A stretch of 64,000 nucleotides of DNA, from the NCBI GenBank assembly GCA_021325275.1, contig JAJPHL010000005.1, forward strand, positions 62,001 to 126,000, given 5' to 3'. The position numbers were made by a program, and so were the translations under genes. The notes under the pieces are model-generated. The model was not told the DNA's origin and did no database searches. It worked only from the letters and a program-made list of their open reading frames with translations. Shown piece after piece: positions 6,890 to 31,447 of the stretch; the stretch's first letter is position 1; every line of letters begins with the position of its first letter. This DNA is from Terriglobia bacterium (lineage in GTDB: Bacteria > Acidobacteriota > Terriglobia > JAJPHL01).

Positions 6890-6992
6890 TCAAATCAAAA
6901 ATCAAAGATCAAAATCAAAAGTCAAAAATACCATTAGGTGCCCGCGGTGTTATTTCCCATTTTTGACTTTTGACTTTTGATCTTTGATTTGA
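6890..6992. repeat. Hairpin element H0, TCAAAA-type inverted tandem arms
   Basis: The left arm 6890-6929 and right arm 6959-6992 are runs of near-heptamers (AATCAAA, GATCAAA, GTCAAAA and complements). They are nearly perfect reverse complements, except that the left arm has one extra heptamer and a one-base slip. The loop is 29 bp. The right arm ends at the AGGAGG ribosome binding site of the next gene. It has the same architecture as the GGCAAAA elements at 16-20 kb but a diverged unit that brings TGA stops into the T-rich arm. Confidence 0.85.
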
Positions 6993-7003: not shown

Positions 7004-7978
7004 GTGTTCGAGCCAACCGGAGCCGTCGCGCTACTGATGACCGTCTTCAGCGCGGTCTGCTGGGGATCGTGGGCCAACGCCGGGAAACTCACGCGCAATT
7101 TCCGCTTTGAGTTGATGTACTGGGATTTTTCGGCGGGCATTTTGCTGATGTCGCTGATTTGGGCTTTCACGCTCGGCTCGGCAGGCGGTGGCCCGAACAG
7201 TTTTCTCGAAAACTTTTCCGCTGCAGACTCCTCGAATATTGCGGCCGCCGCCCTCGGCGGATTCATCTTCAACATTGCGAATCTGCTGCTGGTGGCCGGG
7301 ATCGCACTCGCGGGACTGGCGATCGCGTTCCCGTTGGCCATCGGCATCGCGATGGTCGAAGGCGTGGTCGCAAGCTACATTTTGCAACCGCGCGGCGACG
7401 TGACGCTGTTGGGTGCGGGCGTTTTCCTCGGAGTGATCGCGATTGTTATGGACGGTCGCGCGTACGCAAATCTAAGTGGCGCGAGTAAGAAAGCGTCGGG
7501 AAAAAGCGTGGCCATTTGCGCGATCTCGGGACTGCTGATGGGCAGCTTTGCTCCGTTGGTCACGCGCGCAATGACTCACGAGGTCGCGCTGACACCCTAC
7601 GGGACTTCTGTGGCATTCACAGCGGGCGCGTTTCTCTCCTGCATCGTGGCCAACGGATTTCTAATGAAGCGGCCGATTGTCGGCGAGCCTGTCGCGTTTT
7701 CAGAATACTTCGCCGCACGCGGCATCGATCACGTGTGGGGAATTCTCGGCGGATTGATCTGGGGCACCGGCGCCGTCTTTAATTTTGTGGCAGGCGGCAA
7801 ACTCGGCGTGGCGATCGCGTATGCCATCGGCCAGTCGTCGCCGATGGTGGCCGCGCTGTGGGGCGTCTTGGTGTGGAAGGAATTCGAAGGCGCGGGCGCG
7901 AAAGCCAAGGGCTATCTCGCCGCGATGTTCGCCGCGTATATTCTTGCCCTGGTGGTGATCGCGAAGGCGTACGCCTAG
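7004..7978 (+). CDS. DMT-superfamily sugar/ureide-type permease
   Basis: A 324-residue protein with about ten hydrophobic segments and the hallmark start VFSAVCWGSWANAGKLTRNF, followed by FELMYWDFSAGI and GLAIAFPLAIGIAMVEG. These match the sugar-uptake/ureide-type branch of the drug/metabolite transporter superfamily. It should import a small polar solute across the inner membrane. The GTG at 7004 is preceded by AGGAGG (6992-6997) with a 6-nt spacer; a TTG further upstream lies inside hairpin H0 and is rejected. It probably supplies substrate to the PfkB kinase. Confidence 0.8.
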   Translation: MFEPTGAVALLMTVFSAVCWGSWANAGKLTRNFRFELMYWDFSAGILLMSLIWAFTLGSAGGGPNSFLENFSAADSSNIAAAALGGFIFNIANLLLVAGIALAGLAIAFPLAIGIAMVEGVVASYILQPRGDVTLLGAGVFLGVIAIVMDGRAYANLSGASKKASGKSVAICAISGLLMGSFAPLVTRAMTHEVALTPYGTSVAFTAGAFLSCIVANGFLMKRPIVGEPVAFSEYFAARGIDHVWGILGGLIWGTGAVFNFVAGGKLGVAIAYAIGQSSPMVAALWGVLVWKEFEGAGAKAKGYLAAMFAAYILALVVIAKAYA

Positions 7979-13310: not shown

Positions 13311-13357
13311 ATCTGCGTTCATCTGCGTTCATCTGCGTTTATCTGCGGTTGCGTTTT
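13311..13357. repeat. Decamer element D1 (single arm)
   Basis: Four decamers in exact 10-bp phase (ATCTGCGTTC twice, ATCTGCGTTT, ATCTGCGGTT) are followed by GCGTTTT. The end GCGGTTGCGTTTT matches the right ends of elements D2 and D3. The inverted partner arm is missing here. It lies between the divergent RidA and ETF-QO genes. Confidence 0.8.
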
Positions 13358-15041: not shown

Positions 15042-16328
15042 TCAGAAACTGTAGCGCAGCGCCAAGCTAAGGTGCGAATTGCGCCGGTATTGCCCGAGAA
15101 AATCGTCGGTGTTCCCTCGAATCCACGAGACTCCCGCCGTGGCGCGCCAGTGCGCGCCGAAAGTTTGCGAATACTCCGCGCGCGCCCATGTGCCGGCGCC
15201 GTTTTGCCGCTCGGCCAATTCGAACGCCACGCTGCGCGTCGCGTCGATCGTGTAACCCGCGCGGCCGAGGACGGCTTTCGTGAGTCCGCGATCCGGCGCG
15301 AAGTCGAGCGTGGTGCGATGCACGGTGACGTACTCGCCGGCGTATCCACCCACAAACGACCACTCGCCCTTGATGCGCTCGAGCTGCACCACGTACTCGA
15401 AGTATTCGTCCTCGCCGGGCGTTTGCGACGAAAAGTACGCCGCTTCGCTCTTCACCGTGAACCAATGCAACGGCAGCGCGGCGTCCGCGCCATACGTTCG
15501 GATGCGCGCATAGTACGGCGAAAGCAGAACCCGGCCGGCCGTGAAATCGATGGTGTATGAAATCAATGGCAGATTGTTGTAGCCGTCGAAAAACGACAGC
15601 GACGCTTCGTATCCGCGGCCCAAATGATTCCAGCGCACGCCTTGCTGCGTGCCGCCTGGAAAACTCGCCGAGCCCTCGGCGATCGGCACACCGACGGGTG
15701 GGACCACCCAGCGCTGATCGAGCAAGGGTGAGCGCGACGGCGTGAAAATCGGCACGAAGACGATGTCGATGGTGTCCGACGGCATTTCGTACGTCACCCG
15801 CGCGCCCGTGACGGCGAGAAAATCGTTGTCGACTACGTTGATGTAGTCGCGCGGCGCGAACCGGTCTGTGGGATTCAGAATGTCAGCTTTGCCCCAGCGC
15901 ACAAATTGCTTGCCCAGCTCGACGGTCCAACGCCCTTGATGCATCTGCGCGGTCAAGCGGCGCACGGAAAACGGCGGTTGGCGCAAACCGCGATCCGATA
16001 AATCAAAATGCCAATCGCGATCTACTTGCCTGTGTGTATCGGTGCGCGCATCGAACGATGCCTGCCATTTCAGCCACGATGTTGGCTTCCAAGCAGGCTC
16101 GTAGCGAAGCAGCCAAGAATTCACCGCGTGGCCGGAATCGTTGGGAGCGGCTTGCGGATAGAGGGTGAGATCAGTCTCTAGGAAACCACGTTGCGAAAAG
16201 GTTTGCGAACTCAAAGGCAAAAGGCAAAAGGCAAAAGTCAAAAGGCAAAAGTTAGAAAGGGATACGCCGTTTCCGTCCTTTTGCCTTTTGACTTTTGCCT
16301 TTTGCCTTTTGCCTTCGCTGTCTCCCAT
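15042..16328 (-). CDS. Outer-membrane beta-barrel protein, signal peptide encoded by hairpin H1
   Basis: A 428-residue protein rich in alternating-residue strands with aromatic girdles (for example RVTYEMPSDTIDIVFVPIF, GRVLLSPYYARIRTYG). It ends in the aromatic SLALRYSF typical of outer-membrane barrels. I do not recognise a specific family; it resembles barrels found next to LolA-like and permease genes. The ATG at 16328 overlaps the upstream stop (TGATG) with GGAAGGA 5 nt before it, so the start is well supported. Residues 5-37 are read through hairpin H1. The first arm gives a Lys/Arg-rich stretch, the second a hydrophobic one, together forming a signal peptide that ends near QTFS. Confidence 0.75.
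   Translation of the reverse strand: MGDSEGKRQKAKVKRQKDGNGVSLSNFCLLTFAFCLLPLSSQTFSQRGFLETDLTLYPQAAPNDSGHAVNSWLLRYEPAWKPTSWLKWQASFDARTDTHRQVDRDWHFDLSDRGLRQPPFSVRRLTAQMHQGRWTVELGKQFVRWGKADILNPTDRFAPRDYINVVDNDFLAVTGARVTYEMPSDTIDIVFVPIFTPSRSPLLDQRWVVPPVGVPIAEGSASFPGGTQQGVRWNHLGRGYEASLSFFDGYNNLPLISYTIDFTAGRVLLSPYYARIRTYGADAALPLHWFTVKSEAAYFSSQTPGEDEYFEYVVQLERIKGEWSFVGGYAGEYVTVHRTTLDFAPDRGLTKAVLGRAGYTIDATRSVAFELAERQNGAGTWARAEYSQTFGAHWRATAGVSWIRGNTDDFLGQYRRNSHLSLALRYSF
16213..16316. repeat. Hairpin element H1, (GGCAAAA)n inverted repeat, translated
   Basis: The left arm 16216-16250 holds five heptamers: GGCAAAA three times, GTCAAAA, GGCAAAA. The right arm 16279-16313 is its perfect 35-bp complement, including the odd GTC/GAC unit. 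The loop is 28 bp and carries CCGTCC at 16273-16278. The whole element lies inside the 5' end of the barrel gene, in frame, giving cationic residues, then loop, then hydrophobic residues. Confidence 0.95.
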
Positions 16329-16340
16329 CAGCTTCCTTCC
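16328..16340 (-). promoter_or_regulatory. Ribosome binding site and stop/start overlap fixing the barrel start
   Basis: On the minus strand, GGAAGGA (16340-16334) precedes ATG 16328 by 5 nt, and the ATG overlaps the TGA of the LolA-like gene (TGATG). This makes translation through hairpin H1 the natural reading. Confidence 0.7.
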
Positions 16341-17176
16341 CGCCGAAGCGCCTGTATGGTGAAATCGTCGTCCTTCATCGGTTCGTTATAAGCAAGCTTC
16401 TCCAAGCGCATGATCGTGCGGCTGCCGCGGCGCGCGTCGAGGATCGTCAGCGTGCGCGCGGTCCAAATGCCTTGCACGGCGGCGAAGTCCGAGTAATTCA
16501 TGCGCCGCGCCAGCGTGTCTTTCACGTAGCTCTCCGCCTGCATGAACATCCAATGATCTTTCCGCACCCACAGCTTGACGCTCGTATACTGCGATTGTTT
16601 CGCTTCTTTCGGCCGCGCCTCGATCAGCCAACAGTCCACGCCGTCGAGTTTGTCGTCGCCGAGCAGTTTGAAATCCGATTGCCCGGCGTCGCGTTCCTCC
16701 AAATCCTCGAAGCTGAAATCGGTGCCGAAAAAACGCGTCGAGCGGTCTTGAAAGGCGATGCGCCGCTCACGCTCCAGACTCGGTGTCCACATCCACTGGT
16801 CGGATGCGCGATCGGGATGATTCACGATCAAGAGCGCGACGCCCTTCACTTCGGCGGGCGCGGTGAAGATCAGCACCGACTTGCTTTCGCCGAACGAGCC
16901 TTTGCGTTTGTAGATCCAGCGTTTGTCGGTGATCTTCTTGTTGTCGATCACTTGCAGCGTGCCTTCGTATCGCTGCGAGGCGGTGCGATTGCGCTTTTGT
17001 ACTTCCTCGATGATCGTGCGCGCATCCTGTGCGAGACACCGCGAGCCGGACAAGAGCAAGGCAAAAGGCAAGAGGCAAAAGGCAAAAGGCAAAAGGACGG
17101 TACTAACGCATCGATTTCTTACTTGTAACTTTTGCCTTTTGCCTTTTGCCTTTTGCCTTGCGTTCGCTTCATTCAT
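16328..17176 (-). CDS. LolA-like outer-membrane lipoprotein-sorting protein, signal peptide encoded by hairpin H2
   Basis: A 282-residue exported protein of the LolA-like type: ARTIIEEVQKRNRTASQRYE, a long concave-sheet region (SVLIFTAPAEVKGVALLIVN), RDAGQSDFKLLGDDKLDGVD and KLWVRKDHWMFMQAESYV. Such proteins accompany permease systems and may carry hydrophobic cargo across the periplasm. The ATG at 17176 overlaps the permease stop by 8 nt. Residues 6-42 are read through hairpin H2: a Lys/Arg-rich arm, an 11-residue loop part, then LLPFAFCLLPFALLLSG, with a likely cleavage after SRCLA before QDA. The H2 copy therefore supplies the signal peptide. Confidence 0.82.
   Translation of the reverse strand: MNEANARQKAKGKRQKLQVRNRCVSTVLLPFAFCLLPFALLLSGSRCLAQDARTIIEEVQKRNRTASQRYEGTLQVIDNKKITDKRWIYKRKGSFGESKSVLIFTAPAEVKGVALLIVNHPDRASDQWMWTPSLERERRIAFQDRSTRFFGTDFSFEDLEERDAGQSDFKLLGDDKLDGVDCWLIEARPKEAKQSQYTSVKLWVRKDHWMFMQAESYVKDTLARRMNYSDFAAVQGIWTARTLTILDARRGSRTIMRLEKLAYNEPMKDDDFTIQALRREGS
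17055..17161. repeat. Hairpin element H2, (GGCAAAA)n inverted repeat, translated
   Basis: The left arm 17060-17094 has five heptamers (one is GGCAAGA), and the right arm 17130-17157 has four TTTTGCC units. The outer flanks GCAAGGCAAAAGGC and GCCTTTTGCCTTGC also pair, so the arms differ by one unit. The loop, 17095-17129, starts with GGACGG, as in H1 (complement) and H3. It lies across the 5' end of the LolA-like gene, in frame. Confidence 0.95.
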
Positions 17177-19724
17177 ATTCCAATGCCTCAACCAGCGACC
17201 CTCGCACCGCCGCCTCCGCGGGACCGAGCGCCGAAAGCAGCGCCGCACCCAAGATCACGGGGAACAACGCTAGCGCGATCGACACGGGAAATTCGTAACC
17301 GAGCCGCAAGCCGGCGACGTCGCGGCGCAAAACTTCCAGCATGTAATAAAGATAAATCGCGCCGAGCCCCAATCCCATCAGCAATCCTACTAAGCCGACC
17401 GTGACCGCCTCCATCCAAATGGTGTGGCGAATTTGATTGCGCAACGCACCGACGGCTTGCAATACGCCGAGTTCGCGGCGGCGGTCGGTGATGGAAACGG
17501 TGAGCGTATTCACGATGCCCAGAATCGCCACGAAGATCGCCACGAAAATCTGCGCGTAGCTCATGCCGAACCACTGGTCGGTGATTTTCAAGATGTAATT
17601 CCGTAACTCTTGATTCGTGAAAACGAAAAGCTTCGACTGTCCGCCGAATCGATCGAGAATTTTCTGGCGGACTTCGAGCGGTGAGACGCCTTTCGCGGTA
17701 TAAACGCGGAACAGCGAACATGTGTCGTCGTTCCAGGCGCGCTTATACAGCGTGCGGTCGATCAAGAACGTTCCTTGCTGATCGGAATAATCCTCCACGA
17801 TGCCGACAAGCGGCAGATGCAAGACACCCGCGGGCGTGGGTAAATCGACGACTTCACCGAGTCGCAAATGCTGAAGCTCCGCCAAGTTCTCGGCAGCGAT
17901 GATGCCGCGCCCGGCCGACGCTTCGCGATACATGGTGGTCTCGTCGCCCTGCACGGGGCGGCGCGGCGCGTTTTGCTGGACGCTGGTGATGTCGATGGCC
18001 ACGAGCAAAATTGGTTTGCCGCGGAAAATGATGCGCGGCGCGGAGACGTCTTGCACCACCCGCACGCCGTCGAGCTTGCGAATTGCCTCGCCGAGCGACG
18101 CCGGAAATCGATAGGTGCGCGACGCGAGATTGTCCGACGTCGCGACGACGAGATCGGGATTCAACGCAATCTCCATCCACTTAGTAATCGAGTGATAGCT
18201 GGCGCCGGCGACGCCGCCGAATCCCACGACCATGGTGAGCGACAACATCAGCGCGGCGACCGTTGCCGCGGTGCGGCGCGGCGCTTGAATCAAACTATCG
18301 GCGGCGAGCGCCCCTTCCACGGGACGCAAGCGGCTCAGCAGCGGTCGCAGCAATCGCGTGATGCCCAGCGCGATGGTCGGCGTCAGCAGCAGTGCGCCCA
18401 AAATCGTCAGCAGGAATCCGAAGTAGAAAATGAAGCGATACGCACCGAACACAAGACACCCCGCGGCGACGGCGCCAAAGATCACCGCGGCCCAGCCTCT
18501 CAAACGGGTTTCCTTTTCGGAAATCTCCTGCGCCTTTCCTTTTTGCAGCGCGGTCACCGGATTCACGCGCGACGCTTCATTCGCCGGCAGGAGCGCCGCG
18601 AACATGCTTGTGAGAACGCCCACCGCGAATGACGCGCCCAGCAGCCAAGGATCGGCGGACAACACGCCGTTGCCCGGCTGATCCAAGCCGTAAAGCGACT
18701 CGATCAAGCCGCCGATCTGGCCCATCATGCCGCGTGCCAGTCCCATGCCCAGCGCCAAACCCACCGCCGATCCGATAACGCCCTCGATGAAGCTTTCCAT
18801 CAGGAACAACGTGCGAATTTGTCCACGTCCGGCTCCTAACGCGCGCAGGATTCCGATTTCGTAGCGCCGCTGCGTCACGGCGATCGTGAAGGAGTTGTAG
18901 ATGATGAACATTCCGATCAGCAACGCGAAGACGCTTGAAATATTGATGCTGATGCGATGCGCCGCAACGATCGACTCAAACTGCGCGCCGCGATCGGTGG
19001 GCGCTTCCACGGTGAATCCCGGGCCGATCGCCTTTTGGATCGCTTGTCGTACTTGCGGGACGGTGTAGCCGTCCTTCACCGCGAGATCGATGCGGTCGAA
19101 GCGCCGGCCGCGGCCAAAGACTTTCTGCGCCGCGTACACGTCCATGACAGCGAGATTGCCGCCGAACGCGCTGGCCATGCCGCCGGCCTTCATGATGCCT
19201 CGCACGGTGAATTGCTTCGGCCCTTCCATCGTGCGCAGCGGCACACGCGAGTTCGTTTGCAAGTGATTCCGGGCCGCAAATTCGCTGGTGACCATCAAGG
19301 AATCGGCCTGCGCGAGAAACACCAGCGGATCGTCGATGACCGCCTCGTCGCCGCTCTCGAAACTGTACTCGCGCAAGCTGCGGTCGCCGGTCATGTCGAC
19401 GCCGAGGATCATCAAGTTGCCTTGACCGGGAAGATCGGTGGCCGCGACCGCTTCGATCACCGCCGACGCCGTGCGCACGCCGGGTACCGACTGCACGCGC
19501 TCGAGCACGTCTTCCTCGAAGCCGGTGTCGCCGGCGGAGATTTGCAGCTGTGTCGCGCCGGCAATCTTGTCGACGGTGTGCTGAAACGCGCCCATCACCG
19601 TTTCGTTCGCCGTGCGCATACCGACTAGCACGCCGACGCCAAGCACGATCCCCGCCGTTGTGAGCATCGTGCGCAGGAGATGCTTTCGGACGTAGGGCCA
19701 GGAGATGAGGCGGAGGAGAATCAT
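17169..19724 (-). CDS. FtsX/LolC/MacB-type ABC transporter permease
   Basis: An 851-residue inner-membrane protein with duplicated FtsX-type permease modules. The first membrane helix is at LLRTMLTTAGIVLGVGVLVG (residues 14-33), followed by a MacB-like periplasmic domain. A three-helix block begins ISSVFALLIGMFIIYNSFTIA with the coupling-helix motif RRYEIGILRALGAGRGQI. A second block near the C-terminus ends LVEALEYE and includes RRRELGVLQAVGALRNQI. It should work with the ATPase encoded just upstream to move lipoproteins or other hydrophobic cargo. ATG 19724 is chosen since the upstream open frame runs into hairpin H3. Confidence 0.88.
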   Translation of the reverse strand: MILLRLISWPYVRKHLLRTMLTTAGIVLGVGVLVGMRTANETVMGAFQHTVDKIAGATQLQISAGDTGFEEDVLERVQSVPGVRTASAVIEAVAATDLPGQGNLMILGVDMTGDRSLREYSFESGDEAVIDDPLVFLAQADSLMVTSEFAARNHLQTNSRVPLRTMEGPKQFTVRGIMKAGGMASAFGGNLAVMDVYAAQKVFGRGRRFDRIDLAVKDGYTVPQVRQAIQKAIGPGFTVEAPTDRGAQFESIVAAHRISINISSVFALLIGMFIIYNSFTIAVTQRRYEIGILRALGAGRGQIRTLFLMESFIEGVIGSAVGLALGMGLARGMMGQIGGLIESLYGLDQPGNGVLSADPWLLGASFAVGVLTSMFAALLPANEASRVNPVTALQKGKAQEISEKETRLRGWAAVIFGAVAAGCLVFGAYRFIFYFGFLLTILGALLLTPTIALGITRLLRPLLSRLRPVEGALAADSLIQAPRRTAATVAALMLSLTMVVGFGGVAGASYHSITKWMEIALNPDLVVATSDNLASRTYRFPASLGEAIRKLDGVRVVQDVSAPRIIFRGKPILLVAIDITSVQQNAPRRPVQGDETTMYREASAGRGIIAAENLAELQHLRLGEVVDLPTPAGVLHLPLVGIVEDYSDQQGTFLIDRTLYKRAWNDDTCSLFRVYTAKGVSPLEVRQKILDRFGGQSKLFVFTNQELRNYILKITDQWFGMSYAQIFVAIFVAILGIVNTLTVSITDRRRELGVLQAVGALRNQIRHTIWMEAVTVGLVGLLMGLGLGAIYLYYMLEVLRRDVAGLRLGYEFPVSIALALFPVILGAALLSALGPAEAAVRGSLVEALEYE

Positions 19725-19749: not shown

Positions 19750-19912
19750 CGAAGGCAAAAGGCAAAAGGCAAAAGTCAAAAGGCAAAAGTAAGGACGGAC
19801 GACCTCCAGCGGCGACGCCAGCCACGAACAAGCGCATGGGGTGCGGGCAAGAGCCAGGCGTCAAGGCGTTCACTTTTGCCTTTTGACTTTTGCCTTTTGC
19901 CTTTTGCCTTCG
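19750..19912. repeat. Hairpin element H3, 41-bp perfect inverted repeat of heptamers
   Basis: The left arm 19750-19790 (CGAA, then GGCAAAA three times, GTCAAAA, GGCAAAA, GT) and right arm 19872-19912 are exact complements. The loop is 81 bp and contains GGACGG at 19793-19798. The GTC unit sits at the same place as in H1. It lies in the gap between ABC ATPase and permease genes, is not translated, and begins 26 bp before the permease ATG. Confidence 0.95.
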
Positions 19913-19916
19913 CATT

Positions 19917-20594
19917 TTACCCACGCCGCTCATCTCCAATGATTCTTCCATCCCGCAGCGTAAGCGTCCGCTGGCAGCTCTCGGCGACCTTCGCGTCGTG
20001 CGTCACCACAAGCACCGTCGCACCCAGGCGATCGCGCAGATCGTGGATCAGCCGCAGGATTTCCGCGCCCGTGTGGCTATCGAGATTGCCGGTTGGCTCG
20101 TCGGCCAGCACGATCGGCGGAAAAATCGAAAGGGCGCGGGCGATGGCCACGCGTTGACGCTCGCCGCCGGAGAGTTCGTCGGGCTGATGCTCCATGCGCG
20201 CGCCCAATTGCACAAGCTCCAGCAATTCGCGCGAGCGCTCGTGCGCCTTCGCGCGCGTCCATCCGCGCAGGTGCAGCGGCAGCGCGACATTCTCCAGACA
20301 CGTGAGCGTGGGAAGCAGATTGAAAAACTGGAAGATGAAGCCGATCTTGTCGCGGCGAACGCGCGTCAAGTCGTCGTCGGAAATTCCCGTGAGGTTTTGG
20401 CCGTCGACAAAGATTTGCCCCGACGACGGGCGGTCGAGGCCGCCGATCAGGTTCAACAGCGTCGACTTGCCCGAGCCCGACGCGCCTACGATCGACACCA
20501 ACTCGCCCTTCGGGACGAGAAGATCGACATTTTCCAGCGCTGTTACTTTGCGCTTTCCCTCGAATTGTTTGCTGACGCCCCGTAACTCGATCAA
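19917..20594 (-). CDS. LolD/MacB-type ABC transporter ATP-binding protein
   Basis: A 225-residue ATPase with Walker A GASGSGKST, Q-loop FIFQFFNLLPTLT, signature LSGGERQRVAIARAL, Walker B IVLADEPTGNLD and the switch His in VVTHDAK. The NLLPT and EPTGNLD patterns are typical of the LolD/MacB/FtsE group. It powers the adjacent FtsX-type permease. The TTG at 20594 gives the usual family beginning LIELRGVSKQFEG. A TTG at 20660 would add 22 residues and overlap the upstream gene by 14 nt, and cannot be excluded. Confidence 0.92.
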   Translation of the reverse strand: MIELRGVSKQFEGKRKVTALENVDLLVPKGELVSIVGASGSGKSTLLNLIGGLDRPSSGQIFVDGQNLTGISDDDLTRVRRDKIGFIFQFFNLLPTLTCLENVALPLHLRGWTRAKAHERSRELLELVQLGARMEHQPDELSGGERQRVAIARALSIFPPIVLADEPTGNLDSHTGAEILRLIHDLRDRLGATVLVVTHDAKVAESCQRTLTLRDGRIIGDERRG

Positions 20595-20646
20595 ATAGAT
20601 ATGATCGCCCAGCCGGGGTGAAAGACGCGCTTTTTTTGGCGCATTT

Positions 20647-21975
20647 CTATCGTTTGGCAATTTCCGTCAACATCGCGGCGAGCGCCTTGCGAAAGTCTTC
20701 CGCGCCATGAATGTCGAACAGATGCGGGTTGAGCGGTTTCAGCGTGGCTTCGAGAGAATCGTCGCCTTCGCGCAGGCGACCCAGCCGCATTTCGTCCGGC
20801 GGAAAGCGGCCGCCGCCCGTTGGGGAACCGCCCCCGCGACGTCCGCCGCCGCGCTGTGACGGTGGCATGATAGCGGGCCGCGGAGCAGGGCCACCGTGGA
20901 TCCGCAGGTAGTAGAGTTCCGCGGTCGCCGGTTCGTCCAACTGAATCGGATGAATCTCCGTGCCTTCGGGAAACTGCATCGGGGCGGCGAGAATGATCAC
21001 GATGTGGCGTGGGGCGCTTTTTTCGCTCGACTGGAGCCGCCGTCCAATTTCGTTCTCGAAAAACTCGACGCCCTTGCCGCGATTCGCAAGCGAGCCCACG
21101 TCGATGGTGCCGGGGTTCGCTTCGCCGAATGCGTCGGCGAGTTTCGGCCAGTCGAGCGTGGCGGGCGATCCGAGATCCTGGGTAAAAGCCACGCGACGGC
21201 GCGTTAAATCAAGCACCGCAGCGGAGACGGACGAACCCATTGCGTCGACTTGCGACAAATCCTTGAGCGACGCGACGAGCCGCCCTCGCATGCGATTCTG
21301 GCGTTCGGTCGATCCCATCTCACCCGGCAAGATCATCAGCAAATCGATGCGCGCGGGCGTGCGCAGCGCGAGCGGCAAAAACAATCGTCCCGTCAGGTCG
21401 GGCTGAAACCACACGTCGGGACGTTCGGTGGACGTAACAAACTCCACCGGCGGCATGTTTCGCCACGCCACGGGCAGCGGATCGTCCTTCATAGCAGGCA
21501 CACGCACGGTTTTTCGCACGATTCCGTACTCGCGCGTTTCGTCGTCGTAGACCGCCATCGCCGCGAGATACTCGCCGGGCATCACCAGGATCGCTTGCGC
21601 GTACACCACGTCGGCCTGCTTGATGTTCGGCTTCATTTCCTTCAAGTCGAACTCGCCGTGACCTTGATAAACGTTGCGCGCCGCATCGCCGAATTGCAGG
21701 AAAAATTGCAAATGTCCCTTCGGCGGACGCTTCGCGACATCGCGGCCGTCGACGCTGATGTTCATCGTGAGTTGGAGGCGTTGGAAATCGTCCAACATCG
21801 GCGGGTCGGCGGAAACCTTCAGGGGAATCTGCCCCGCGCCGGGCGATTTCACCCACTCGCCGAACGGCACGGTGGAGAAAAAAGGATCGAGCGAGTTCTG
21901 CGCGCCCGCCGCCGTCGCCAGAGCGAGAATACAGACCGCCATCAAGGGCCCCAATTTCCGAAGCGCCATCCGCAT
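20647..21975 (-). CDS. Exported hypothetical protein heading the export operon
   Basis: A 442-residue protein with a signal peptide (KLGPLMAVCILALATAAGA, residues 7-25). The rest has beta-rich segments (RLQLTMNISVDGRDV, GHLQFFLQFGD, MPGEYLAAMAVYDDETREYG) and a region IDLLMILPGEMGSTERQNRM. A low-complexity Gly/Arg/Pro linker (RGGGRRGGGSPTGGGRFPP) precedes the C-terminal helix. I recognise no family. It is the first gene of the ATPase-permease-LolA-like-barrel operon, so a periplasmic role in that system is likely. A TATAAT hexamer lies 9 nt before the ATG; a second ATG is at 21969. Confidence 0.7.
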   Translation of the reverse strand: MRMALRKLGPLMAVCILALATAAGAQNSLDPFFSTVPFGEWVKSPGAGQIPLKVSADPPMLDDFQRLQLTMNISVDGRDVAKRPPKGHLQFFLQFGDAARNVYQGHGEFDLKEMKPNIKQADVVYAQAILVMPGEYLAAMAVYDDETREYGIVRKTVRVPAMKDDPLPVAWRNMPPVEFVTSTERPDVWFQPDLTGRLFLPLALRTPARIDLLMILPGEMGSTERQNRMRGRLVASLKDLSQVDAMGSSVSAAVLDLTRRRVAFTQDLGSPATLDWPKLADAFGEANPGTIDVGSLANRGKGVEFFENEIGRRLQSSEKSAPRHIVIILAAPMQFPEGTEIHPIQLDEPATAELYYLRIHGGPAPRPAIMPPSQRGGGRRGGGSPTGGGRFPPDEMRLGRLREGDDSLEATLKPLNPHLFDIHGAEDFRKALAAMLTEIAKR

Positions 21976-31354: not shown

Positions 31355-31447
31355 AAAGCAACCGCAGGTGAATGCAGATGAACGCAGACAAAAACCTGGC
31401 TCTTGTTCTTATCTGCGTTTATCTGCGTCCATCTGCGGTTGCATTTG
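31355..31447. repeat. Decamer hairpin element D2
   Basis: The left arm (31356-31393, starting AAGCAACCGCAGG) and the right arm (31409-31447, ending ATCTGCGGTTGCATTT) are imperfect inverted copies. Both are made of about 10-bp units (GATGAACGCA, ATCTGCGTTT). They enclose a loop of about 15 bp. It fills the gap between the ligase-like and glycosyltransferase genes. Unlike the heptamer family, its GATGA/GATAA units introduce stops in the frames. Confidence 0.85.

Follow-up and report, generated by a model that had tools for sequence, protein, structure and literature searches.

Related repeat systems

Tandem heptamer units dispersed in the genome characterise the STRR repeats of filamentous cyanobacteria, which are not known to build coding hairpins from inverted arms or to encode signal peptides. 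The RU-2/YPAL repeat (168 bp) in YPO1552 of Yersinia pestis provides a precedent for a repeat-derived signal peptide (Delihas 2007, PMC2759123, PMC2229807), in one clear gene and with a different sequence that is not heptamer-armed. A second precedent is the Rickettsia RPE of Ogata et al. (2000), which the summary in PMC2229807 presents as occupying 19 frames across many gene types, including cytosolic enzymes, with a neutral effect. The neuO gene carries at its 5' end a single direct heptanucleotide tract of 3-53 units, which is translated and switches the gene by slippage (PMC13001214).

The heptamer hairpins described here resemble STRR repeats in having dispersed heptamer units, and neuO in being a putatively translated heptanucleotide repeat at the 5' end of a gene, but differ from neuO in their short mirrored arms. 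They share with repeats of the RPE and RU kind many dispersed copies, a stem-loop, in-frame positions in conserved genes and absence from orthologues; like the RPE palindromes, as summarised, they would also be translated there. Their hosts, in contrast to those that the summary gives for RPE, are exported proteins, to which the repeat would supply the sorting signal. Compared with RU-2, they are found in 13 or more genes across five genomes, and the cationic-hydrophobic order is built in on both strands. Literature searches on heptamer repeats in Acidobacteria and on signal peptides derived from repeats yielded only Delihas 2007. The novelty lies in the heptamer design, which carries its order on both strands, in how many fusions there are and in their recurrence in different families.

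Heptamer hairpins in a four-gene run

The window (the whole 64,000-nt stretch of DNA that was analysed) contains a GGCAAAA/TTTTGCC hairpin at each of the three junctions of an operon-like run of four minus-strand genes, and a divergent hairpin outside it:

6892..6985, no strand: divergent heptamer hairpin with ATC/GTC units, intergenic and unfused, ahead of the gene at 7004
15042..16328, minus strand: gene for a barrel-like outer-membrane protein, 428 aa; N-terminus MGDSEGKRQKAKVKRQKDGNGVSLSNFCLLTFAFCLLPLSSQ-TFSQRGF
16213..16315, no strand: heptamer hairpin element 1, at the 5' end of the barrel gene; A-rich arm 16216-16250, loop, T-rich arm 16279-16313
16328..17176, minus strand: LolA_like gene, 282 aa (PF17131, E 1.2e-53); N-terminus MNEANARQKAKGKRQKLQVRNRCVSTVLLPFAFCLLPFALLLSGSRCLA-QDARTI
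17058..17159, no strand: heptamer hairpin element 2, at the 5' end of the LolA-like gene
17169..19724, minus strand: FtsX/MacB-type permease gene; ATG (MILLRLISW) after element 3, an unfused control; stop overlaps the LolA start
19752..19910, no strand: heptamer hairpin element 3, intergenic, from the ABC ATPase stop to the permease ATG; fused to neither
19917..20660, minus strand: ABC transporter ATPase gene, first in the run

Chance can be excluded for the heptamer seeds, since GGCAAAAGGCAAAA has 13 copies in the window against 0.00 expected from 100 shuffles, and three successive GGCAAAA units (at most two mismatches) are matched 242 times genome-wide against 0 for the reversed-pattern control. 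Folded as single strands, elements 1 and 2 reach -69.6 kcal/mol (z -13.4) and -54.4 kcal/mol (z -11.1), respectively. An earlier note on this DNA had reported two GGCAAAA/TTTTGCC inverted repeats in frame inside the 5' ends of two adjacent genes, and both positions and frames are confirmed: read on the minus strand, element 1 corresponds to barrel residues ~5-39 (GKRQKAKVKRQK...NFCLLTFAFCLLP) and element 2 to LolA-like residues ~6-40, within two residues of the 5-37 and 6-42 given there. The barrel protein has no family match in Pfam or NCBIfam.

Gene starts were assigned by hand from a simple gene finder, which placed almost all fused-gene starts after the element. Both window starts are as well anchored as had been argued, the barrel ATG overlapping the LolA stop (TGATG) with GGAAGGA upstream, and the LolA ATG lying inside the permease-terminal GAATATGAATGA. 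Hairpins of -54 to -70 kcal/mol begin 13-17 nt past the start codon and could hinder initiation; in this position they require melting or translational coupling.

A second dispersed repeat family of this genome, the decamer ATCTGCGTTC, forms an array and an inverted pair at window positions 13311-13347 and 31363-31437, and a RidA-like gene with a signal peptide has one copy of the family at its start.

Coding properties of the arms

A pure GGCAAAA arm encodes GKRQKAK in all frames and its complement encodes FCLLPFA. The claim that every frame is free of stops stands for pure GGC arms, but the GTC/GAC variant unit, which is present in the barrel element, closes one of the T-rich arm's three frames with a TGA. 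Over 23 hairpins, the six frames are open in 54% of cases, compared with 13% for shuffles. Each of the 75 open frames begins cationic and ends hydrophobic, bearing out the order that had been predicted from either strand; their first ten residues have a mean charge of +5.3 (lowest +2) and their last twelve a mean hydropathy of +2.0. The reverse arm order occurs in none of the sampled elements (~46).

In both window genes the A-rich arm encodes a basic n-region and the T-rich arm a hydrophobic h-region, in support of the earlier proposal, and element-coded h-regions match native ones in hydropathy (2.0-2.7 against 1.6-2.9). The features of a Sec signal peptide are present in sequence, with basic residues, an h-region in this range and then a cleavage-like site, by a crude hydropathy rule that ~22% of genes pass. 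The in-frame elements thereby appear to supply the basic n-region and hydrophobic h-region of the two window signal peptides.

Fused and unfused genes in the genome

The genome comprises 6.86 Mb in 75 contigs, of which 2.0 Mb were sampled around and away from elements and 0.4 Mb were added later (~2.4 Mb). The 2.0 Mb held ~46 elements, 23 of which are A-arm/T-arm hairpins, and single-arm forms also occur. Elements are mostly intergenic and mostly 10-60 nt from gene ends; the flanks of all elements show no shared core and no obvious duplication, and the arms mostly begin AAGGC. The ends of contigs C7, C12, C42, C47 and C56 carry long uninterrupted heptamer arrays of up to ~18 units, and the assembly breaks at such arrays, since several contigs end in them.

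In eight genes of this genome, two of them the window pair, an ATG lies within an element or 3-33 nt upstream of it, and the frame stays open through the element: the LolA-like and barrel genes, L072, L073 (TPM), L080 (GH116), L088 (Rv2525c-like), a pectinesterase gene in L116 and another gene in L116. Two of the six outside the window have no Pfam match, and L072 is one without a family. All eight proteins are of an exported kind or have a plausible cleavage site directly after the element. In a ninth case, L237 (LolA family, GTG start), the A-rich arm forms the n-region before a native h-region. Unfused genes that start at most ~60 nt after an element encode cytosolic or integral-membrane proteins with no cleavable signal peptide (permease, PilB-like, rhomboid-like, AccC-like, TruB-like, transporters, DUF72-like and cobalamin adenosyltransferase-like). 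Exported proteins account for 8/8 fused against 0/10 unfused genes (Fisher p 2e-5), an indicative value, the table being post hoc and the 'exported' labels coming partly from family membership. A possible cytosolic exception is a murQ-like gene (L075) of uncertain start, in which an A-rich arm may follow a GTG. Close to a heptamer arm in the same genome, a PF00756 esterase (L088:15809-16800, contig C55) has a signal peptide seemingly made from adjoining CTCTGTG units (RRFSLCSLSSLCALWVTCLGVALPLWSGAQS).

The explanation considered quite probable is that the elements replace or extend native signal peptides of exported proteins, with fusions surviving through filtering. They would be dispersed, lineage-specific, non-autonomous inverted repeats with heptamer arms, located mainly at gene boundaries. 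An element that landed after the start codon but ahead of the mature sequence of an exported protein would contribute, on either strand, a Lys/Arg-rich n-region from its A-rich 5' arm and a Phe/Cys/Leu h-region from its T-rich 3' arm, and the native signal peptide would be replaced or extended with its cleavage site kept, so that the insertion would be tolerated and retained. In a cytosolic gene the same event would send the protein to the wrong place, and survivors would be expected only upstream of an independent start. We infer that these peptides are made by the cell and act as Sec export signals, that the elements arrived by insertion, and that purifying selection acts as the filter.

It is possible, though a good deal less probable, that the elements act as REP-like intercistronic RNA hairpins, stabilising operon messages or keeping them apart, and that the coding is a by-product, with signal-peptide regions tolerating read-through. 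The very stable folding, the placing of elements at all three junctions of the four-gene run and their usual nearness to gene ends would suit such a role, as would three other elements at gene 3' ends (L121:8423-10315, L090:11895-13337 and L081:8773-10110), into which the genes run, gaining only a basic tail (GKRQKAKVKRQK or similar) and then a stop. A role in the message alone leaves unexplained, however, why the fused genes are all of exported kinds and why the barrel protein has lost its native h-region. Hairpin function and signal-peptide replacement can be compatible.

Orthologues without the element

Orthologues of the LolA-like protein are 59-66% identical and begin at the same operon junction and the same codon, inside the permease's GAATATGA end, which further anchors the window start. 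The named genomes carrying related LolA proteins are mostly Acidobacteria/Bryobacterales/Solibacter MAGs, and the insertion events themselves are not seen because the nearest genomes compared share only the order.

Most orthologues have an ordinary short signal peptide, none has the element and several have other repeats there. The four clearest LolA orthologues (L032, L034, L039 and L040) have a normal signal peptide of ~17-22 residues with the site before QD, as in MSRFILALVLAVSGGMPAFA-QDGKQI (L032) and MSKLLLAALLTACAALA-QDPRQI (L040), and element-free barrel proteins begin MIAAGALATLLLAQ-SFTQRGF (L040), MRVLLAVIFTAAVCAAQ-SYTQRGF (L038) and also MILLATLLLHAQ or similar. The window LolA-like protein retains LLLSGSRCLAQ-D, a remnant of the native c-region, after the element, which would therefore extend this remnant. 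The window barrel protein retains only the last residues (LSSQ) of the orthologue-type signal peptide, so that its whole h-region would be element-made.

GH116, TPM and the L116 membrane protein likewise have element-free homologues that start with normal signal peptides; pectinesterase homologues, being too remote or joined to other domains, do not settle the native signal peptide of that protein. The LolA, barrel, GH116, TPM and L116 orthologues are thus already exported through normal signal peptides at the same site, contrary to the earlier suggestion that an insertion creates a ready-made export signal. Judged from these N-termini, signal peptides of already exported proteins are remodelled and export is not newly invented. 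The creation of export de novo from a cytosolic protein was considered and rejected, as it has no case and every fusion that can be placed involves a protein of an exported kind. Orthologues keeping a normal signal peptide elsewhere had been named as evidence against a role for the elements; normal signal peptides are indeed found in orthologues, but they do not refute the role in the window, because no native h-region survives in the barrel protein.

Other dispersed palindromes lie in frame at LolA/barrel junction N-termini in L035, L036 and L037. At the LolA/barrel N-terminus, L036 (genome G018) has an in-frame GAGGAG palindrome with 376 copies in that genome, L035 (genome G049) an in-frame five-copy repeat and L042 (genome G052) a CCCTTTT-type tract. 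The LolA N-terminus of L038 (genome G033; near 1433, reverse strand) is MNRNVNLRHLRNPRLILFL with an ATCTGCG (TCTGCG) repeat, the rest being masked. Where operon junctions are tight, signal-peptide regions seem to be a general landing site for repeats.

Fusions in other Acidobacteriota

The element is not general to the phylum, since its T-rich arm occurs in 10/396 genomes of the phylum sample and the full hairpin in only 3/299 genomes of the class. The 3-kb loci around T-rich-arm matches revealed five more fusions in four distant Acidobacteriota genomes:

L243: exported glyoxalase-like protein; GGAGGG ribosome site upstream
L252: solute-binding lipoprotein; LTAC box
L255: M16 peptidase; element forms the n-region only
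L258: TPR protein; TGATG start
L261: c-type cytochrome (CLPCH); LSAAC box, TGATG start

A PQQ-type propeller (L262) may be a further fusion, and cytosolic genes in other genomes (deoB-like, tsaD-like) start after the element. A c-type cytochrome acquires its haem outside the cytoplasm, so the L261 N-terminus must work if the protein does. Searches thus found both the window genes without the element and other genes starting in such repeats, and the recurrence, for which the earlier note had two genes, now extends to six more fusions in the same genome and five in four others, a total of at least 13 fused genes in five genomes. The stronger proposal that the element is a portable signal-peptide cassette, working from either strand, taken up repeatedly and independently across Acidobacteriota, and kept for its service in export and not merely tolerated, is doubtful.

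It is very improbable that the true starts lie downstream of the elements and that the N-terminal reading is accidental. In favour of such starts, the A- and T-rich arms have chance open frames much more often than ordinary DNA does, and the T-rich arm contains TTG codons, but the LolA orthologues start upstream, the barrel gene has no ATG for ~90 codons past the element, and the upstream starts have ribosome sites or TGATG overlaps; moreover, no signal peptide would remain, although export is essential for LolA, solute-binding proteins and c-type cytochromes. Least probable of all is that the arms are phase-variation tracts in which gain or loss of one 7-nt unit turns off an envelope protein through a frameshift, in the manner of E. 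coli neuO, because although seven is not a multiple of three and 5'-coding heptanucleotide tracts do switch genes (neuO, PMC13001214), these arms are short (~3-6 units), broken by variant units and mirrored, and most elements are intergenic.

Implications

N-termini of this type are often cut off or called spurious, which is a warning for annotation, and further cases could be sought by a simple rule: A-rich then T-rich inverted arms with a period that is not a multiple of three. The fusions, at least 13 and independent, form a natural series for measuring which repeat-derived sequences work. Replacement of native signal peptides by these elements would show how non-coding repeat DNA can exchange a sorting signal in a single step, and why signal peptides are so free in sequence.
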